From NCBI GenBank assembly GCA_903837525.1, contig CAILUU010000026.1:1-64000 (forward strand): a DNA stretch of 64,000 nt. Reading direction: 5' to 3'. The notes beneath the pieces were generated by a model that was not told where the DNA came from, searched no databases, and saw only the letters and a program-made list of their open reading frames with translations. This document shows positions 6,601-60,802 of this stretch, piece by piece (position 1 is the stretch's first letter; the number at the start of each line of letters is the position of its first letter). Position numbers and translations under genes: made by a program. Source of the DNA: an uncultured Bacteroidota bacterium (GTDB lineage: Bacteria > Bacteroidota > Bacteroidia > Chitinophagales > Chitinophagaceae).

Positions 6601-8444
6601 TTAAATAATTTTTTATCCAATGTGCCTTTTACAATTAAATTTTGATAATTATAATTTAGTAATTGTACTTGGTTAATAGTTCCATCAAAATTTAACAGTA
6701 CATCTTTTGCTGTAAACCCTTTACCCTTTATTTTTCCATTAACGCTAATATTACCTAGTGTTTTGGTATTTAAAAAACTACTAAGGTTGAATGAAGTTGT
6801 ACTAATTTTACCAGAATAAATTGGAGTTCCTTTTGCAGGTAACTTCATATTAATATCTACATTTATAGTGCCAAGGTTTGTGCCAATACTGCCATAAGCA
6901 ACAAAGTCATTTATAAAGCCAGTATAATTTCCTTTAAAGGTTATAGTACCTAATTTGCTAAGCTGTGGTTGTGTTACTTTTTTTAAAGAGGGAATAAGGG
7001 TTAACAAGTCTGTGTGGGTAGTTCTCAAATCTCTCGACTTAAAATCAATAAATGTTGTTGTAATATCTGGTAGTCCACTTAACGTAATATCTCCATCTAC
7101 AATAGTATTGCCACTTTTAATTAACATGTTTTTGGTAACTAAATTATCTATTGTGCCTCTAGCATTTCCGCTAAGCTCAAAAAGCCTATTCCACGTTTTT
7201 AAGGTTGGTGCAAAAAGAGCAATATCATCACTATGTAGTTTACTATTAATAAATTTACCTTCTAATTTTACGTTATTAATAAACTTATTCATATCTGCAT
7301 TAAAGTTTTCATAACGCATTACATAATAATTACTCAATTTACTTTTTGGTGTAATTAATTCTAATTGATTAAACTCCATCATTGCAGGTGTAAGTTTAAA
7401 AAAGGCATTTATTTTTTGTACATCCAACCCATTCTTTTCTTTTGCAGATAAACTTATGTTAGTGCTCAACGTATCTTGTAAAAATTGTACATTTTTTAAG
7501 CTTCCGTTTAGTTGATTAAACAACATGTGTTGTCCATCAAATTTATCGGTAAAGGCTAAACGCTCTGTTTCTTTGTCTAGGGCAAATATTCCGTTTTTTA
7601 AGGTTATGGTATTTACAAGTATACTCCACTCATCATTATTCCATTTGTATTTTGTAGGTAGGGTAAACTTATTTTGGGGAGGAGAAGAAATACCTAGTTT
7701 TGATTTATTGCCTTGATAATCTCTTTGTGTAAAAATAGGCTCTACTAAATCAATAGAATTAATATCAATTATTTTTTTATTTAAATTTACACTATTAGCG
7801 TTTAAGTAGAATTTTTTTATAGAGGCTACAAGGTTTTGGCCAACCCATTCATCTACTCTATTAAATATAAGGTTTTCAATTTCTATATCTTTTAATTCTA
7901 ACTGTAAACCCTGTTTCTTTTTTTTACCTGTATTAGGGCTATTGAAGTAGTCTATTAAAAATTGATAATTCCAAATGCTATCTGTTCTTTTTAAATTAAC
8001 AACGGTGTTAGTTAAATTTGTATACTTTAAAACAGCGCTATCCTTAAAAAAAAACCAATCGGTAATATTTACTTTAGCAAGGCCTGTATACAACAAGGTA
8101 TCTTGTTTCCTATCCTCTACCAATATCCCTTCTATATTCATTTTATTAAAAAAGCTAAAGTCAATATGCTTTATTTCTACTTTTGTTTTTAAACTTTTAG
8201 AGAGTTTTGCAGCAACTTTTTTAACTAAAAAATTTTGAAAGGGGGTGTAGTTTATACCCAGCCAAAGGGAGGCCAACAGTAAAATGATGCAAGCAAAAAA
8301 AGCAATTTTGTGTTTAATTTTAGTAAAGGTGTAAGCAAATGACAGGGCTAAAAGGCAAAGCAAAAAATAGAATAACCATTTATTTTGCCCATAAACAAAA
8401 TAGCATAATGCCATAAATGCTGCCCAAAAAAGCAGTATAAGCAT
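3648..8444 (-). CDS. translocation/assembly module TamB-like (DUF490) protein
   Basis: 1598 aa, N-terminal membrane segments, long beta-rich AsmA/TamB-like repeats, C-terminal TamB domain (SIRGTYTITGGEYTFNFQTVLKKYFTINNGTIVWNGDPYKAAINIKANY). Confidence 0.9.
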   Translation of the reverse strand: MLILLFWAAFMALCYFVYGQNKWLFYFLLCLLALSFAYTFTKIKHKIAFFACIILLLASLWLGINYTPFQNFLVKKVAAKLSKSLKTKVEIKHIDFSFFNKMNIEGILVEDRKQDTLLYTGLAKVNITDWFFFKDSAVLKYTNLTNTVVNLKRTDSIWNYQFLIDYFNSPNTGKKKKQGLQLELKDIEIENLIFNRVDEWVGQNLVASIKKFYLNANSVNLNKKIIDINSIDLVEPIFTQRDYQGNKSKLGISSPPQNKFTLPTKYKWNNDEWSILVNTITLKNGIFALDKETERLAFTDKFDGQHMLFNQLNGSLKNVQFLQDTLSTNISLSAKEKNGLDVQKINAFFKLTPAMMEFNQLELITPKSKLSNYYVMRYENFNADMNKFINNVKLEGKFINSKLHSDDIALFAPTLKTWNRLFELSGNARGTIDNLVTKNMLIKSGNTIVDGDITLSGLPDITTTFIDFKSRDLRTTHTDLLTLIPSLKKVTQPQLSKLGTITFKGNYTGFINDFVAYGSIGTNLGTINVDINMKLPAKGTPIYSGKISTTSFNLSSFLNTKTLGNISVNGKIKGKGFTAKDVLLNFDGTINQVQLLNYNYQNLIVKGTLDKKLFKGNFSINDPNLIVEDAVGIIDFNENNSKLNLDGFIRKADLKKLNIINDEFIVKGKLNLNFKGKNIDTFLGGAAIDDALITHNGQKLSLNNFTISSTVQDGLKALSFSSNDVEGSIKGEFTIEQLPDAFTLLLNKYYPGYFKKPLRKLDNQNFSFDIKTKEVDEYVQIIDRRLKGFNNTTFVGNLKIPGNELNFTADIPEFSYDGKTFVNTHLQSVGTGDTLATIITVDDISLNDSLHLPQSKLILLSAKDMTTLNLTTSASKTLSDAQLNASIETLSDGVKIHFFPSSFILNDKKWNLEDDGELTISKSTIDANQIKFSQGNQSIIIGTKENDVTGKADIVAELKNVNITDFTPFIKELPRLEGILTGSLTLQNPFGNPFIEFEGNAENFTFEDKKIGKLNLSATANTSTGKVRYKANADEPVYKFNLEGDANYKDSLENVLDLNFISERFNLEILGPYLEGIFSNMQGNAVNDLKVTIGKNGKTITGTTTITDGSFKVNYTQCTYKFTNETIVFNPNEINLGEMELKDTLNNTAKASGKMYHNLFDNFEFDNVRLNSQKLLVLNTTKKDNSQFYGKVIGNATLKIDGPVTDMRMDISGEPSRNEIDSNHIYIPSSTSKENGTLNYIEFIQFGTKMDDFGKGKKGTNILVNMDLKTNPTTKIDVILDEETGDIIKGRGNGDLKITVGTKEPLSIRGTYTITGGEYTFNFQTVLKKYFTINNGTIVWNGDPYKAAINIKANYLAANVDVGNIPTTSTTGFKQKADVNIISTLTGELQKPIINFEFVADGEIKNDFVSKKWLDDLKNNPNEMNKQIVSVLLFNSFINSQQNFLSGGNVAGLATNTIGGIVSSLLTNLFNKELEKATKGVLSTYIDLSTTVSLQQRIASLQASVSAGFKILLSNRLQVLFGGNLDYNNPYAQLARRGLLTPDISVQWLLNKDGSIRVVGFNRTNTDLNLGQRNRSGVSLSFRKDYDKFGDLFKKKKK

Positions 8445-53100: not shown

Positions 53101-54433
53101 AATTGGTCGTACTGGTGAGGTAAGAATTATGGATGTTAAAAACGATCGTTTATTAATAACCAATAATGTTCCTTACGGTGCTACTTTAAATGTAAAAGAC
53201 GGACAAAAAGTTACTAAAGGTGATGTTATTTGTACTTGGGATCCATTTAACAATGTAATTGTTGCAGAAACTGCTGGAGCTATTAAGTTTGATGCGTTAA
53301 TTGAAGGTATTACTTACCGTGATGAAGCAGATGAACAAACTGGCCATAGAGAAAAAGTAGTTATCGAAACAAAAGATAAAACTAAATTGGCTTCTATCCT
53401 TTTAGAAGGTAAAGAAAAGAAAACCTATAACTTACCAGTAGGCTCTCATATTGTTGTAGAAGAAGGCGATGATGTAAGAAGTGGTCAAGTGCTTGTAAAA
53501 ATTCCTAGAGTACTAAGTAAATTAAAAGATATTACTGGAGGTTTACCAAGAGTAACGGAATTATTTGAGGCAAGAAACCCAAGTAACCCTGCGGTGGTTT
53601 GTGAAATTGATGGTGTTACCACTTTTGGTGTTATTAAAAGAGGAAACAGAGAAATAATTGTAGAAGCAAAAGATGGTGTAGTACGTAAATATTTAGTTCC
53701 ATTAAGTCGCCAAATTTTGGTGCAAGATGGCGACTTTGTAAAAGCTGGTGCTCCATTAAGTGATGGTCAAACAGCTCCTGCAGATATTTTAGCTATTAAA
53801 GGTCCATTTGCAGTACAAGAGTATGTGGTAAACGAAATACAAGAGGTTTATCGTTTGCAAGGGGTAAAAATTAATGACAAGCATGTAGAAGTTATTGTTC
53901 GTCAAATGATGCGTAAGGTAACTATTGAAGATGCTGGAGATACTATATTCTTAGAAGGAGATACAGAAGATAAATTAGATTTTAACACAGAGAACGATGC
54001 TATTTTTGATAAAAAAGTAGTAACGGAGCATGGAGAAAGTACTAAGCTAAAAACTGGTCAAATTGTAACGCTTAGAGATATTAGAGAAGAAAATTCTATA
54101 CTACGAAGAGCGGATAAGAAATTAGTAGAATACAGAGATGCTTCGCCAGCAACAAGTAGCCCATTGTTATTAGGAATTACTAAGGCATCGTTAGGTACAC
54201 AAAGTTGGATTTCTGCGGCATCGTTCCAGGAAACAACCAAGGTATTAAGCAGTGCTGCAATACAAGGTAAAACCGATTTAATGTTAGGCTTAAAAGAAAA
54301 CGTTATTACAGGTCATCATATACCAGCAGGTACAGGCTTACGTGAATTTGAAAATATGATTGTAGGTAGTAAGGAAGAATACGAATTGCTTCAAACAACT
54401 AAAGAAGCAATGAGTTTTGATGACGAAGAGTAA
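50141..54433 (+). CDS. rpoC: DNA-directed RNA polymerase subunit beta'
   Basis: 1430 aa; [42 protein letters not shown]-type zinc finger. Confidence 0.99.
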
Positions 54434-54618: not shown

Positions 54619-54695
54619 GGCTTCGTAGCTCAGCTGAATAGAGCGTCTCACTACGGATGAGAAGGTCTTAGGTTTGAATCCTAACGAGGTCACCA
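54619..54695 (+). tRNA. tRNA-Arg (anticodon ACG)
   Basis: Cloverleaf: GGCTTCG / GCTC-GAGC / TCTCA-CTACGGA-TGAGA / TTAGG-TTTGAAT-CCTAA / CGAGGTC-A-CCA; CCA encoded. Confidence 0.95.
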
Positions 54696-54720
54696 ATATA
54701 CTTTCAGTACATAACGTATT

Positions 54721-54745
54721 CCCTATAAATCATTGATTTATGGGG
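54721..54745. repeat. inverted repeat directly downstream of tRNA-Arg (terminator or att-associated)
   Basis: CCCTATAAATCAtTGATTTATGGGG. Confidence 0.7.
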
Positions 54746-54795
54746 AATTTTGTTTCGCTAACTTTCGTTAAACAACGCTTTTCGTCGGATTTTAC

Positions 54796-54830
54796 TTCAC
54801 CATTTTTTCACCAAAGAGCCGATTTTCACC
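54796..54830 (+). repeat. TTCACC(A) direct repeats, integrase arm-site-like
   Basis: TTCACCA at 54796, TTCACCA at 54807, TTCACC at 54825. Confidence 0.45.
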
Positions 54831-54845
54831 TAAGTCTTTAAAAAA

Positions 54846-54923
54846 ATGAAAAAAGTAAAAATGATGTTCTACCAGAACTTAGCAAAAAAAAGTGCTAAAA
54901 CAATGGAAGTGCCAAATTATTGA
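54846..54923 (+). pseudogene. possible decayed tyrosine-integrase N-terminus
   Basis: MKKVKMMFYQNLAKKSAKTMEVPNY*; another frame just downstream reads ..IECLHGKREVT*. Resembles a Bacteroidota integrase start (VKxMFY..KS...C...GKR); very short and low information. Confidence 0.3.
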
Positions 54924-54987
54924 GTGCCTCCACGGTAAGCGTGAGGTGACTTAATTGGCATTGCCTCGTGATAGTGCTGTTTTCCTT

Positions 54988-55461
54988 CTATTTTTCGAGT
55001 GCGCCTTTTGCATATGGATTATAATCTTCAAAATACATTTCAAATCCATTAGGAATAATACCAACATTCCTACAAATTTCAAGAAATCTCAGTTTATCTT
55101 TTTTCGCTATTTTCATTAAACTTTCAAAAATCTCTGGAGGTAATCTTTCTAATACCCTTTCCACAGCTTTGTTTGCCGTTAATGCATAACTTACCGAATC
55201 TTTTGATTTGTATACTTTTAAAAACTGAATAAATTTATTTTTATCATTTTTTAAAAATTCTACTAATTCATGATTACCTTCTTTTACAATTATGGAATCA
55301 GTACTAGATAATTTTTCAATGGTTATATTTAATTTTTTTGCTTCATCTTCTGCATCAACCAACCATTGAGGTTTGGGAGGCGCTACGTAGAAGGGTTTTT
55401 CAGGAGGATTACCACAACTTGTTAAGAATATAACCAATAAAATTGTAACTAACTTTTTCAG
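54988..55461 (-). CDS. putative lipoprotein, probable CTG start
   Basis: In-frame extension gives (CTG)KKLVTILLVIFLTSCGN with lipobox LTSC; the ORF-track TTG start would leave an implausibly short signal. Confidence 0.6.
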   Translation of the reverse strand: MKKLVTILLVIFLTSCGNPPEKPFYVAPPKPQWLVDAEDEAKKLNITIEKLSSTDSIIVKEGNHELVEFLKNDKNKFIQFLKVYKSKDSVSYALTANKAVERVLERLPPEIFESLMKIAKKDKLRFLEICRNVGIIPNGFEMYFEDYNPYAKGALEK

Positions 55462-55550
55462 AGTTGTAATAAATTTAATATAAATCTACGGTCTATTTTT
55501 CAACACGACAAATTCTCATTTAAAAGCAACCTCACAAAATTGTTTTCCCT
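55462..55550. repeat. duplicated 5' region, copy 1 (upstream of the 54988-55461 lipoprotein)
   Basis: Near-identical to 56111-56199: ttgtaataaatttaatataaat..ggtctatttttcaacacgacaaattctcatttaaaagcaacctcacaa. Confidence 0.85.
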
Positions 55551-55667
55551 TGGGTGTATACTATTGTAATTACCAAGTTTGCTTTGATAATTGGAAACAT
55601 CCCAAATAATACATTTTGAAGAAGGCGTTCCAAGTATTTTGCCCAAGCTTTCTAAACAGAATCAAAT

Positions 55668-56111
55668 CTAATAAGAAGTATCAACTTTAATTTCGCCATC
55701 TGTTAATTCAGCATTTTTTACTTTACCAAGTAAATGTGTAGAATCAAATAAACTCCAAATATGCCAAATTTTACGCCATTTACCAGTTAAATTAGCAACA
55801 TGTACTGGGTTCGTTACATCAATATTTAATACACTAAACCAGTTATACATTGCGTTTCTAAAATTGTTACTTCTAAACAAAATTTTATAATCATCATCGG
55901 TTAATTTAGGAACTAGAATATCATCTAATGTATATTTTCTGGAAGATTTGTCATATTTCAGTTTACCTGCTTCTGCCATTTTTTCTAAATCACTACTTAA
56001 GAATTCTTCAAATTGAAATTTTTCAGTTGTTAGATTGGCAACAGTATTAATTTTCGAACCACCACCATTACAAGAGGCGAAAATGATAAGAAAAAAAAGC
56101 AACTTTTTCAT
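55668..56111 (-). CDS. putative lipoprotein
   Basis: MKKLLFFLIIFASCNGGG lipobox. Confidence 0.65.
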   Translation of the reverse strand: MKKLLFFLIIFASCNGGGSKINTVANLTTEKFQFEEFLSSDLEKMAEAGKLKYDKSSRKYTLDDILVPKLTDDDYKILFRSNNFRNAMYNWFSVLNIDVTNPVHVANLTGKWRKIWHIWSLFDSTHLLGKVKNAELTDGEIKVDTSY

Positions 56112-56199
56112 GTTGTAATAAATTTAATATAAATATAAGGTCTATTTTTCAACACGACAAATTCTCATTTAAAAGCAACCTCACAATATTGTCTTGCCT
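56111..56199. repeat. duplicated 5' region, copy 2 (upstream of the 55668-56111 lipoprotein)
   Basis: See 55462-55550. Confidence 0.85.
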
Positions 56200-56410
56200 T
56201 TCGTGTAATTGATAGTATTCCTGAACCCCACTTTTAGTTGATTTTAAAACTTAAATTTTTTTAGTTGTACTTCTTTAGGCAAAATAAATATAGATGGGGT
56301 TATAGTAATAGCCATATCTCTAGAATCGCCTCTTGCACAAAAATTTTAAATAAAGTTATTGGGCAAATGATAGAGATGAATAGTTTAACGTATGCTACAG
56401 ATGAGTTAAG

Positions 56411-56959
56411 TTAAATAAATTCTATACTTTCTATTTCTAGTTCAAAAGAGCCTTCCCTTTTTTCATTGGTAGAAATTCCAATTCTTACTATACTCTCTAA
56501 AATTTTATTGTTAGTTTTATTGCCGGTTGGTTCACCAATTACTTCTTCTATAAAATCAGTAAGGTTTAAGGAAACTGTTTCCCATTTATTTATTTCTTTA
56601 GCCTTAAAGTCATTCTTATATGCAGCCTCATACCATCTACGACTATTCTCTAGCGTAAACGAATATTTTTGACTGGTGGATCTAAATTTTATTTTTACAG
56701 TTTTATATTGCGATAAATCAACCTTACCGAAAGTTGATTTTGTTGAAACAAAACCACCACGGTTTTCTAATGAAACAAACCCTTTAACAATAATTGAAGT
56801 GGTATCATATTTAAGTTGGGCCTCCGATAATCCACCCATTACATTATCGCTTAGTATTACCCAATTGGTAGTTCTGTTTGTAGAAGTGCCAAAATCTATT
56901 TTATAAGGTTTATCGGAAGTAAGCATAAATAGCGGCAAAAGCAAGGATAAAATTTTCAT
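56411..56959 (-). CDS. CIA30-like family protein, exported
   Basis: WVILSDNVMGGLSEAQ...FVSLENRGGFVSTKS...YKTVKIKFRSTSQKYSFTLEN. Confidence 0.75.
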   Translation of the reverse strand: MKILSLLLPLFMLTSDKPYKIDFGTSTNRTTNWVILSDNVMGGLSEAQLKYDTTSIIVKGFVSLENRGGFVSTKSTFGKVDLSQYKTVKIKFRSTSQKYSFTLENSRRWYEAAYKNDFKAKEINKWETVSLNLTDFIEEVIGEPTGNKTNNKILESIVRIGISTNEKREGSFELEIESIEFI

Positions 56960-57038
56960 GTGTGTATCTTTTCATCAATAACAATTAAAGCAAGATATAG
57001 TTCTGCATTTGTTTCCTTTTAAAATTTATTTATTTTTT

Positions 57039-57383
57039 TTAACTTGTAATTTCCCAATAAAATATATACGCATTTAAACCCATGTAAAATATTGCTGGCA
57101 AAGAAATCCAGAGACTATCTTTCAACTTAACTCTTACAATTAAACCAAGCAACATTAATAGGGCAAGTCCACCAGAAGATATTAATAAAACAGGTTTAAA
57201 TAATAAACCTACTAATAGCCCAATAGCACCCAAAATTTCTAGGATAATTGTCAAAAGTCCTAATTTCTCTAATTTGAAGCGTTTAAATTCACTTTTCATA
57301 TGAGGTGAAATGAAGTATGATATAGAATATGCTAAAAATGATAAACTTGAAATTAAAACACTCGAAATAAATAAATAATTCAT
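57039..57383 (-). CDS. DoxX-like membrane protein
   Basis: 4-TM protein; LEKLGLLTIILEILGAIGLLVGLLFKPVLLISSGGLALLMLLGLIVRVKLKDS; internal ATG (MNYLF) preferred. Confidence 0.65.
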   Translation of the reverse strand: MNYLFISSVLISSLSFLAYSISYFISPHMKSEFKRFKLEKLGLLTIILEILGAIGLLVGLLFKPVLLISSGGLALLMLLGLIVRVKLKDSLWISLPAIFYMGLNAYIFYWEITS

Positions 57384-57385
57384 AG

Positions 57386-57730
57386 CTAAATTATATCTAA
57401 TGAAACTAATACAATGAAAACACATAAAATCAAGAAAAATAATGAGGGTAAGCGTTTAAAAAATGGATTTTTTATTTTGAAATGGAAATATTGAGCAGCT
57501 AACATAAAAAAGCCCATAAGAATAGAAGGAATAAGAATTAATAATGGATACCAAATTCCTACGATTAATAAAGTTGCCAGAGAAATTTTAGATGCTCCTA
57601 CAAAGGTTCGGATTAAATCACTTAGTCCAAATTCTTTAAATTCTTTAATGATTACATCATATCGTAAAATCCAAACATAGGCAACTGATGTTGCTACAAC
57701 AATTTGTGCCAAAAGAAGGAAAGTTGTCAT
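57386..57730 (-). CDS. DoxX-like membrane protein
   Basis: 4-TM protein; YVWILRYDVIIKEFKEFGLSDLIRTFVGASKISLATLLIVGIW. Confidence 0.6.
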   Translation of the reverse strand: MTTFLLLAQIVVATSVAYVWILRYDVIIKEFKEFGLSDLIRTFVGASKISLATLLIVGIWYPLLILIPSILMGFFMLAAQYFHFKIKNPFFKRLPSLFFLILCVFIVLVSLDII

Positions 57731-57858
57731 TTTTTATTTTTTTTTAGTTGTGGTTTCTGTTACGTCCTACATATCGAGAAATTCGCCTTTATTATATTTC
57801 AAAACATAAAATTAATCAATCAGTTAGTTTCAAGTTAGCAACTTCGCTCAAGCATGAC

Positions 57859-57991
57859 GCCCAACGTTTTCGGGGCTTGCGTTCGGCGGGCTTTCGGAGC
57901 CTCTCCTGTCTAAACGCACCCAAGTTTATTTACTGCTTAATGTTTATATTCCCTCGTCTGCCCGCTGACGCAATTGTCCCGTGTTATAAGG
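57859..57991 (-). repeat. large imperfect inverted repeat, attC-like
   Basis: CGGGgcTTGCGTtcgGCGGGC (57871-57891) pairs with GCCCGCtgACGCAAttgtCCCG (57960-57981); ends read TTATAAC and GTTGGGC on the gene strand. Confidence 0.5.
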
Positions 57992-58026
57992 ATGTGCGCC
58001 ACACAGAGTTTTTGTCGGTGCTATTA

Positions 58027-58281
58027 TTAAATTTGATGTGAATAAGAATCTTCGTCCGGATATAGTTTTGAACTGTTTAGATTTGTATGAATACCATTTT
58101 CGTCAATGTCTATGTAATATATTTCGTCTGGTTTGATTTTATTTAATAATTCAATACGCTTACTAATTACAACTAAAGCGTCAGGATAACTTTGAGTTAA
58201 ATTATGTTCGTCAAAATACCTTTTAGCGATTTTATGTCCCTTGTGGAATGTCCTGATAATTATTTGTTGAAACTTTTGCAT
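58027..58281 (-). CDS. small hypothetical protein
   Basis: 84-aa ORF. Confidence 0.5.
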   Translation of the reverse strand: MQKFQQIIIRTFHKGHKIAKRYFDEHNLTQSYPDALVVISKRIELLNKIKPDEIYYIDIDENGIHTNLNSSKLYPDEDSYSHQI

Positions 58282-58370
58282 AATATTTTTGTCTTTGAAA
58301 TTATTCGTCTAGTCTTTTTGTTGTCATTTTGCAAATTCAATGTTGGCGGCAGTTTAATTTCGTTACACAG

Positions 58371-58787
58371 TTAATTAGTTTCTAGCTTATTCTCCACCAA
58401 TTCACTTCTGTCAAAGCTTTTAACAAAGAAAAAGTGGTAAACATTTATGTTGCCACTTAGTCCTCCAGATTCGGAAACTGGGAATGCATTCAATAATTTC
58501 CAACCTTTTCCACCTAAATAATTTAAGGCATCCACGGTTGACTTGAATTTTTTAACTTTTCCAGACACTTCATCTTTAATCCTGGTATCTTTAAAACTAA
58601 AAAGACTTCTTCCTTCGCCGAAGTCAATGTCAATTGTAATTTTGTTTGAGAATAGTCTTCCTTGCGAGGTCATTTCACAGAATTGGTCAATCCTCGCAGT
58701 GTCTGATTGTGCAAATGACAACATTGGAATAGATGTTAAGAAGATAAATGTCAATCGCTTAAGTAGGTTTACTTTTTTGTGGTTCAT
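58371..58787 (-). CDS. hypothetical exported protein
   Basis: Signal peptide (LLKRLTFIFLTSIPMLSFA); 138 aa. Confidence 0.6.
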   Translation of the reverse strand: MNHKKVNLLKRLTFIFLTSIPMLSFAQSDTARIDQFCEMTSQGRLFSNKITIDIDFGEGRSLFSFKDTRIKDEVSGKVKKFKSTVDALNYLGGKGWKLLNAFPVSESGGLSGNINVYHFFFVKSFDRSELVENKLETN

Positions 58788-58901
58788 AGTTATTTTATTT
58801 TGGGTTGTTTTAGGAAGGTTTCTACCTTAAACATACCTATTTTTTTTACATATCCAGTTTTTCGTTTTCAGTTTATTTTGTAGTGATACGTGAGGGTAAT
58901 T

Positions 58902-58958
58902 GCACATAACACAATATTACACGAAACCCCCACTTTTTGGGTAGCTGATGTTACGGGC
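58902..58958 (-). repeat. imperfect inverted repeat at the 3' end of the downstream ORF, attC-like
   Basis: GCACATAACA (58902-58911) / TGTTACGGGC (58949-58958), inner CCCCC...GGG hairpin. Confidence 0.4.
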
Positions 58959-58963
58959 ATAAT

Positions 58964-59434
58964 TTATTTTACGCCCTCTATTAATGCCTTAACACAATTG
59001 TCATACTCAATTAACAAATCAGGATTTTGGTTCTTTTCTCTTGTGTAGAGTATGTATGGTTGCATTTTTTTATTAAACTTTATAAATGAAGTACCCATAA
59101 ACCTTTTGATTACATACTTGTCATAAACTCCAATGTTGTAACCAATACTTATATCTTCAAAAATATTAAGCTGTTTTTTAACCTCATTATGTAAAGCGGT
59201 ATCAGAAATAATGATATTTATTAAACTATCACTATCGTTGATGTATTTAATTCTTTTATTAATCGCACTTATGTGGCTTTTGTCTCTTGCTTCTAGTGAA
59301 TGAAGAGTTTCAACTTTTTTTTGCCATTCATCTTGATGTTTTTGCGTCTGAACAGACCATATTATACTAAACAAAATACTTATTGCAGCTAATACTTCAA
59401 AAATTAATTTGTAAGAAAACGTCGTTTTTATCAT
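58964..59434 (-). CDS. hypothetical membrane-anchored protein
   Basis: 156 aa; N-terminal TM segment. Confidence 0.55.
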   Translation of the reverse strand: MIKTTFSYKLIFEVLAAISILFSIIWSVQTQKHQDEWQKKVETLHSLEARDKSHISAINKRIKYINDSDSLINIIISDTALHNEVKKQLNIFEDISIGYNIGVYDKYVIKRFMGTSFIKFNKKMQPYILYTREKNQNPDLLIEYDNCVKALIEGVK

Positions 59435-59669
59435 AATCTTGTTTTTATATAATTTTATTTAATAAACCCGATTTAAAAGTAGGTTTTTCTTTTCATTCAT
59501 TTGATTCGTTTATTTCAAATCAAAAACATTTCCATGATATAAATGAATGAAATTGAAACTTAGATTTTAATCTGTACTCTTTTTTGGTGGAGATTTTACA
59601 GATAATTATTTCAATTTAAGAATTTTATAGCACAATTTATGAAGCCGATACTATAATATTTTCCAGCCA

Positions 59670-59758
59670 TGTTTGCATCCACCACATCGTTGTTTGTGCA
59701 GCTCGAACCAAAGTGCAGCAATGCAAACAGCCGAAGTTTGAACGTCAAGCCCGGCTTG
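59670..59758. repeat. inverted-repeat-rich intergenic segment
   Basis: TGTTTGCAT (59670) / ATGCAAACA (59721) and palindrome CAAGCCcGGCTTG (59746-59758). Confidence 0.5.
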
Positions 59759-59860
59759 TACAAAACCCAATGTAGTGCGTTCGTGGCTCTAATCCAACTT
59801 ATCTTCAGCGTTTATGTTCAACTGTTGAATAGTTTTTTTTGCAACTAGCTATCTAAAAAA

Positions 59861-60802
59861 TTACTTTACAAAACTCTCTTTCATCTTTTCCATTAAACCA
59901 CTTTGTAGCATACGCTGTGCTGTTACTAACATATTTTTAAAAGCTGTTGCGCAACTTATACCGTGGCCAATAATTACTGGTTTGGCTACACCAAGTATGG
60001 GTACACCACCATAAATTTCAAAGTTAAAACGGTTAAAATGTTCATCATTTAAGCCTCTACGTTTGGCAATATCGTAAATGCTTTCGGCTAATTTTAACAC
60101 CACATTTCCAGTAAAGCCATCGCATACCATTACCTCGGCTTTTGCGGTTAAAATATCTCTGCCTTCTATATTACCCTTAAAATTTAATTGCGTATTTTCT
60201 TTTAAAAGTGGGTAGGTGGCTTGTGCTAATAAATTGCCCTTGCCTTCTTCCTCGCCAAGGTTTACTAACCCTACCTGCGGATTTTGGAACCCTAAAATAT
60301 ATTTGCTAAAAAGACTACCTAGTACCGCAAATTGGTTTAGGTTTTCGGGTTTGCTATCGGCATTAAGCCCAACATCTACTAGTAAACCTAACTTTCCATC
60401 TTCTCTGGGCATGTAGGCCCCAATAGTTGGGCGTAGTACACCGGGTATAGTTTTAATGCTAAATAGTGCACCCACCATCATTGCACCAGTGTTACCTGCA
60501 CTTATAAACGCATCTGTTTTTGCTGTTGCTAATAAATTAAAACCTAGGGCTATAGATGATTGTTGTTTTTCTTTTAATGCCTTTGTGGGGTGTTCGTTCA
60601 TTTCAATTACTTGCTGGGCATGTACAATCGTGTACGTACCAGTGGGTAAGGGGTTAGATAGTATGCACTCCTCAATTTGTGGCTGATTACCTATTAAGGT
60701 TAGATGAATATCGGTGGGGTTAGTTGCTAAATATTCTGCTACGCCTTTTACAGCTTGTAGTGGGGCATAGTCGCCTCCCATCATGTCTAAAGCAATATTC
60801 AT
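59861..60802 (-). CDS. plsX: phosphate acyltransferase PlsX
   Basis: IALDMMGGDYAPLQAVKG, SAGNTGAMMVGALF, VCDGFTGNVVLKLAE, GHGISCATAFKNM. Confidence 0.97.
   Translation of the reverse strand: MNIALDMMGGDYAPLQAVKGVAEYLATNPTDIHLTLIGNQPQIEECILSNPLPTGTYTIVHAQQVIEMNEHPTKALKEKQQSSIALGFNLLATAKTDAFISAGNTGAMMVGALFSIKTIPGVLRPTIGAYMPREDGKLGLLVDVGLNADSKPENLNQFAVLGSLFSKYILGFQNPQVGLVNLGEEEGKGNLLAQATYPLLKENTQLNFKGNIEGRDILTAKAEVMVCDGFTGNVVLKLAESIYDIAKRRGLNDEHFNRFNFEIYGGVPILGVAKPVIIGHGISCATAFKNMLVTAQRMLQSGLMEKMKESFVK

Follow-up and report, generated by a model that had tools for sequence, protein, structure and literature searches.

Which kind of mobile element, if any, accounts for the row of small genes that separates the gene for tRNA-Arg(ACG) from plsX in an uncultured Chitinophagaceae bacterium is the question raised by the stretch of DNA analyzed here (positions 1 to 64,000 of contig CAILUU010000026.1, assembly GCA_903837525.1; hereafter the window). 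The host genome (G000) comprises 2.17 Mb in 55 contigs, and the window's plsX is closest to Ferruginibacter records, which identifies the host as a Ferruginibacter-like member of the family. The tRNA gene lies between rpoC, ending at 54433, and the convergent plsX (59861–60802, minus strand), and eight small open reading frames (ORFs), every one on the minus strand, occupy 54988–59434 ahead of plsX; the GC content of the interval is 0.306, versus 0.33 for the window. An earlier note drawn up from the letters of the window had pointed out about 4.5 kb of small same-strand genes there. That note had read the whole interval as an integration site whose integrase has decayed while its cargo remains. 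We consider it probable that the interval holds the fossil end of a tRNA-targeted island and, side by side with it, a decayed integron cassette array on the minus strand, at a rearranged rpoC–plsX junction.

attC-type sites and cassette arrays

A DNA search with 54900–59855 identified 59696–59773 as a dispersed intergenic sequence in many congeners; its copies occur singly between adjacent members of rows of small genes that share a strand. The layout of these sites is that of attC: the R'' box terminates in AAC, L'' and L' form a stem, and GTT marks the R' box. An alignment of 31 sites gave a hairpin of 17 pairs, 14 of which showed substitutions on both sides; sites of type A are about 195–215 nt long. 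When R'' was compared with the R' box at the start of its own cassette, 62 cassettes from four arrays scored 5.37/6 (38 perfect), versus 3.13 ± 0.15 after shuffling (maximum of 10000 shuffles: 3.76) and 3.25/6 against the R' box of the same site. For 35 cassettes from outside the genus, mostly from other families, the score was 5.74/6 (29 perfect; shuffled 2.93 ± 0.19). Even the core of R''/R' co-varies (GTA...TAC). Cassette boundaries became directly visible in genome G067, where an ORF-less cassette of about 285 nt occurs as four copies in one array (L259, minus strand, at 8081, 11114, 16371, and 18383), each with its 5' edge exactly at CG|T and with unrelated flanks; the fourth copy lacks its 3' half. 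The longest ORF points in the array direction in 39 of 39 cassettes of G016, 9/9 of G063, 4/4 of G008, and 6/8 of G067. On one strand, G016 has 42 sites, of which more than 30 fall in a 30-kb run behind its integrase gene. Hairpin covariation, the boundary rule, cassette copies, and orientation together place the family among the integrons.

In G062, the recombinase gene at the head of an array precedes a putative attI, after which come cassettes with R'' boxes that fit their own 5' boundaries. The motifs preceding the first cassette fall into two groups with a common sequence each, TATAAGSTAGTTAGYGG and TTCGTATATTTATGAGTTG; examples are few, and we refer to them as putative attI. Directly 3' of plsX in G015 (L128:2437–3474), an attI-like motif, GTATATTTATGAGTT, comes first, then a cassette gene, then an attC site; no integrase gene intervenes. 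The 3' end of plsX was considered as a standing cassette site and rejected, as among the plsX loci fetched only those of the window and G015 have one. A generic finder of AAC/GTT hairpins proved unspecific and was dropped. The array of G165, a member of another family (L308:2345–19322), contains genes for a type II restriction enzyme, for its methyltransferase partner, and for an additional DNA methyltransferase.

The window was scanned with an nhmmer model and the covariance model (CM) R2, both built without any G000 sequence. The minus-strand features are the following:

54988–55437, minus strand: gene for a small putative lipoprotein with a TTG start (ORF; candidate array member only)
55668–56111, minus strand: gene for a small putative lipoprotein, with an upstream 96-nt repeat in common with the 54988 gene (ORF; candidate array member only)
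56411–56959, minus strand: gene for a CIA30-domain protein (Pfam PF08547, E 2.1e-33; candidate array member only)
57039–57730, minus strand: overlapping DoxX_2-like gene pair, adjoining site 57845 (Pfam, one of the two just under the cut-off)
57845–58000, minus strand: attC-type site of type B, full length, R' GTTGGGC (nhmmer E 1.5e-7; alignment A2)
58027–58281, minus strand: probable cassette gene, 84 aa, followed by site 57845–58000 (ORF)
58321–58357, minus strand: probable shrunken attC remnant, GCCGCCAACATTGAATTTGCAAAATGACAA (R2 E 0.02, rank 3 in 64 kb; nhmmer E 4.5)
58371–58787, minus strand: probable cassette gene, 138 aa (homologue in L217, 39% identical)
58834–58891, minus strand: 58-nt segment, 91% identical to sequence upstream of the integrase gene on contig C33 (sequence comparison)
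58898–58967, minus strand: probable short attC-like site, GCCCGTAAC...GTTATGTGC (weak: R2 E 0.64, nhmmer E 1.4; lies between genes and has the box pattern)
58964–59434, minus strand: gene for a DUF4760 protein, probable cassette gene (Pfam PF15956, E 3.9e-17)
59665–59787, minus strand: attC-type site of type A, 5' part (R'' ACGCACTAC), 3' part eroded (CM R2 E 2e-11; nhmmer E 9.7e-18)

As judged from their sequences, 57845–58000 and 59665–59787 are attC sites of the integron family, and 58321–58357 and 58898–58967 are probable attC stubs. With the window's own matches included in training, the nhmmer E-value of site 57845–58000 was 4e-22, versus 1.5e-7 in the model free of this genome; the best nhmmer E-value in the reversed window was 0.65. 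With 57845–58000 and 59665–59787, the latter by its 5' part only, the window has the minimum for a cluster of attC sites lacking an integron integrase (CALIN): two sites on the same strand no more than 4 kb apart. On these grounds the array of the window appears decayed at least over 57.8–59.8 kb, whereas the genes at 54988–57730 may or may not once have been cassettes.

Several observations accompany the window array. The counterpart of 58834–58891 sits 44–101 nt upstream of an integron-type integrase gene on C33 of the same genome; the segment may be a promoter or a recombination relic. A further attC site of G000 lies between same-strand genes, close to the opposite end of the contig that holds the window (L091:12689–12858, corresponding to C26:92679–92848). 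The 96-nt repeat upstream of the two unrelated putative lipoprotein genes (55463–55558 and 56112–56207) is 93% identical between its copies, and the DoxX_2-like gene pair is kept in other congeners. Pfam yielded no assignment for the remaining minus-strand ORFs, PADLOC detected no defence genes in the set of window genes tested, and Rfam found only the tRNA above chance level in the window.

The array-head recombinase and its distribution

The gene at the head of the arrays encodes a recombinase that matches the IntI model TIGR02249 in two stretches only (2–179 and 239–315) and stays below its cut-off, which was passed in 0 of 93 genus genomes. For most proteins scanned, the best NCBIfam match was XerA (NF040815), with 215 bits versus a cut-off of 220. 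In the alignment to IntI4 (2A3V), two conserved blocks are 20 residues apart, versus 62 in IntI4, while XerA aligns without that gap. The array-head recombinase is hence devoid of the roughly 42-residue IntI-specific (I2) region by which a canonical IntI is recognized. The AlphaFold2 model, with a predicted local confidence (pLDDT) of 83, shows a loop at the position of I2 and no helix. The catalytic R, K, HxxR, H, and Y are all kept. An integrase gene precedes the array on the same strand in G016, G067, G008, G062, G026, G118, G009, G107, and G087, and in G165 and G183 of other families. An intact copy of the integrase gene is present in the window's own genome (C33:99000–100043), with a putative attI between the stop codon of the gene and the end of the contig, which lies 222 nt beyond that codon.

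We infer that the array-head recombinase performs cassette exchange, on single- or double-stranded sites. Intact relatives of the array are made up of a XerA/IntI-like recombinase gene, a putative attI lying about 100–250 nt past its stop codon, and a row of cassettes on the same strand; the recombinase would presumably capture circular cassettes via the folded attC site despite lacking the I2 region. An attC hairpin site would once have stood behind each minus-strand gene of the window array, with cassettes gained or relocated through cleavage at G^TT in the R' box.

Model R2 detected sites in most of the genus genomes searched and, in a sample of the class Bacteroidia, in at least 99 of 247 genomes and at least 64 of 135 genera, counts that are lower bounds because few candidates were scored per genome. 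In the survey conducted with IntegronFinder 2, Salinibacter is the sole member of the Bacteroidetes named as having a complete integron (PMC9024848). Detection software demands the IntI-specific domain, as stated in the paper on archaeal integrons (PMC9668308), and a study of integron evolution considers I2 and single-strand recombination exclusive to integron integrases (PMC7790495). In the open-access literature we found no description of an array system headed by a recombinase without I2. The system would behave like an integron, but is not classed here with the canonical IntI integrons, since a test for their defining IntI domain found it missing.

On balance, we favour the notion that the Bacteroidia hold a large, previously unrecognised class of integrons whose head recombinase has no I2 region, with capture of folded sites proceeding without I2 or by another route, perhaps a double-strand or Xer-like one, and that the window contains a fossil array of this class. 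If so, a gene-capture system present in about half of the Bacteroidia genera sampled has seemingly been missed by current surveys, and arrays that combine textbook boundaries of cassettes and hairpins with covariation with a recombinase devoid of I2 would make the role and the origin of I2 directly testable.

The island remnant and its rearranged surroundings

Four features precede the minus-strand genes in window coordinates:

54619–54695, plus strand: tRNA-Arg(ACG), taken as attB/attL core of a tyrosine-integrase island (ARAGORN, Rfam; TCCTAACGCGGTCACA recurs as attR twice in G012)
54721–54745, no strand assigned: inverted repeat (hairpin) immediately within attL (sequence; shared by G012 and G011 in position and layout)
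54796–54830, plus strand: three TTCACC boxes, probable integrase arm sites (no second triple of this kind in the window; L003 has three and L005 two at the corresponding position)
54846–54923, plus strand: integrase gene stump of 25 codons, MKKVKMMFYQNLAKKSAKTMEVPNY followed by a stop (aligns with the N-terminus of the intact 418-aa integrase at L085:7557–8813)

Here the earlier note had recognized the near-perfect inverted repeat, had likened the TTCACC direct repeats to arm sites, and had taken the short ORF for the N-terminus of a decayed tyrosine integrase, and all three points are supported by comparison with G012. Among 60 relatives searched with the first 342 nt as query, only G012 shows similarity extending well beyond the tRNA. 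In that genome, the hairpin and three TTCACC boxes come next after tRNA-Arg, and beyond them lies the gene for an intact tyrosine integrase of 418 aa. The local alignment score of 54697–54990 against the corresponding G012 sequence 3' of this tRNA was 60 (500 shuffles: 20.6 ± 2.5, maximum 31), and that of the 25-residue peptide against the N-terminus of the G012 integrase was 53 (2000 shuffles: 18.9 ± 3.9, maximum 43). The similarity to an integrase sought within 54846–54990 is thus present. The boxes of the window start at 54796, 54807, and 54825, and no other triple within 40 nt exists in the 64 kb. G011 has the same att region, but its integrase is reduced to the first few codons. The 16-nt tRNA 3' end TCCTAACGCGGTCACA appears again in G012 at L086:8862 and 10538, about 21.5 and 23.2 kb onward, and each of these attR copies is preceded by the same arm of about 160 nt, which reveals a real island plus a second, 1.7-kb tandem insertion. 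This tandem mini-island between the attR copies (L086:8862–10553) contains a gene that, judged by eye, resembles AbiEii-type nucleotidyltransferases.

The window itself did not yield the attR copy anticipated by the earlier note: a second copy of the att end CCTAACGAGGTCACCA was found neither in the remaining window sequence, with as many as 3 mismatches allowed, nor, as an exact match, elsewhere in the genome. We therefore refer to 54619–54923 as a remnant rather than an island. An att core in the tRNA 3' end and an integrase gene beside the tRNA, the latter as a 25-codon stump only, characterize it, from the sequence comparisons above, as the attL end of a decayed tRNA-targeted tyrosine-integrase island. 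Such an island would have entered the 3' end of tRNA-Arg(ACG) by means of a tyrosine integrase read from just inside attL; later, all but the first 25 codons of the integrase gene would have disappeared, as would the right end of the island.

Relatives do not have the gene content of the tRNA–plsX interval in common, a result that leaves the proposed integration site standing. At the protein level, the rpoC fragment of sister genome G060 is 98% and its plsX 90% identical to those of the window, but the neighbours of rpoC and of plsX differ. The tRNA-Arg of G060 is flanked by rlmH and a carboxylate-amine ligase gene, without any element, and the three pieces rlmH, tRNA-Arg, and carboxylate-amine ligase are on three separate contigs in G000. 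The interval is consequently bounded by two breakpoints and is not a conserved arrangement, and rearrangement is the simplest reading of how the tRNA island and the array came to be adjacent. The tRNA-Arg(ACG) genes of window (54619–54695) and sister genome (L158:1549–1626) have the same U-A acceptor pair, a compensated change relative to the G-C pair of the other congeners inspected. Other congeners (L007, L008, and L021) have a GIY-YIG-like ORF just 3' of tRNA-Arg(ACG), sometimes near partial tRNA copies, which possibly represents a different tRNA-linked element.

Competing explanations and known systems

Some of our observations weigh against the readings given above, for the window as well as for the class. 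On inspection of the sequences, no cassette of the window retains a matching R''/R' boundary pair, and site 59665 is without its 3' part; the lack of an intact pair is what we read as decay. Two of the four window sites score below threshold, an attI-like motif was looked for in the window and none was seen, and the genes at 54988–57730 have no detectable attC site of their own. As to the recombinase, the predicted template modelling score (pTM) of 0.52 makes domain placement uncertain, and the best match of the model in a fold search was IntI4 itself, with IntI4 and XerA being the closest solved structures. The integrase gene diverges from the cassettes in array G018 and, as a truncated gene, in G171, so that integrase orientation is not fixed.

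Would a single degenerate genomic island, with the integrase remnant and all small genes as its joint cargo, explain the interval equally well? Remnant and genes are indeed adjacent, the gene content is not conserved in relatives, and the GC content lies below that of the window. We nonetheless deem this explanation unlikely, given that attC-type sites belong to integron arrays that lie far from this tRNA in relatives, that the only intact island found at the tRNA, in G012, belongs to a genome without such a site and carries different genes, and that an attR following the genes was not found. Of the earlier note's overall proposal, the decayed integration site holds, in view of the intact and truncated homologues in G012 and G011; the view of the 4.5 kb as plain island cargo is not supported, as one full and one half attC-type site and two probable stubs lie between the minus-strand genes, which marks at least 57.8–59.8 kb as another type of element, served by another recombinase. 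A dispersed repeat such as a miniature inverted-repeat transposable element (MITE) or a repetitive extragenic palindrome (REP) could likewise be scattered in many genomes and imperfectly palindromic, as the sites are, but an inserted repeat would not make R'' fit the R' box at the start of the same cassette rather than that of its own site; moreover, cassette copies start exactly at CG|T, and there is one site per gene on one strand. This origin is very improbable. Still less credit can be given to the idea of ordinary hypothetical genes with chance motifs and no mobile element: small and poorly characterised as the window genes are, profile and alignment scores far beyond those of shuffles and the reversed control, and independent profile hits, refute it. 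A different objection accepts the arrays as real and has a canonical IntI act in trans, the adjoining XerA-like gene being incidental. It draws on the fact that the role of the array-head gene in exchange is one we infer, and that XerA/IntI-like recombinases are common in the genus, with several per genome. However, no canonical IntI above the cut-off was found in the 93 genus genomes, and a XerA/IntI-like gene heads arrays in at least 11 genomes of several families, which renders the objection improbable to us.

We thus retain the combination of an island end and a decayed array of the Bacteroidia class, and each part has its counterparts among known systems. With tRNA-targeted islands, the remnant has in common the tRNA 3' end as att core, an integrase inside attL, arm-type repeats, and, in G012, tandem accretion; unlike complete islands, the window retains only attL and 25 integrase codons. 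XerA/XerC-type recombinases (NF040815, PDB 5HXY) are the best full-length sequence match of the array integrases and align without an I2 gap, whereas the latter head cassette arrays and possess an extra N-terminal domain.

In Spirochaete-type integrons, intI is reversed and read in the cassette direction, as the integrase gene usually is in Bacteroidia arrays. An unusual integrase orientation is mentioned for integrons of Spirochaetota, whose IntI is classed by the IntI-specific domain (PMC9668308), a domain that the Bacteroidia array integrases do not have. A parallel in layout is offered by sedentary chromosomal integrons and CALIN. The Bacteroidia arrays differ from these in their recombinase without I2, the length of their type A sites, an integrase gene usually oriented in the cassette direction, and their hosts, and resemble them in small genes on one strand, each with an imperfect hairpin site behind it, in R'' pairing with the 5' boundary of its own cassette, in a putative attI, in ORF-less cassettes, and in a long array behind a tyrosine recombinase.

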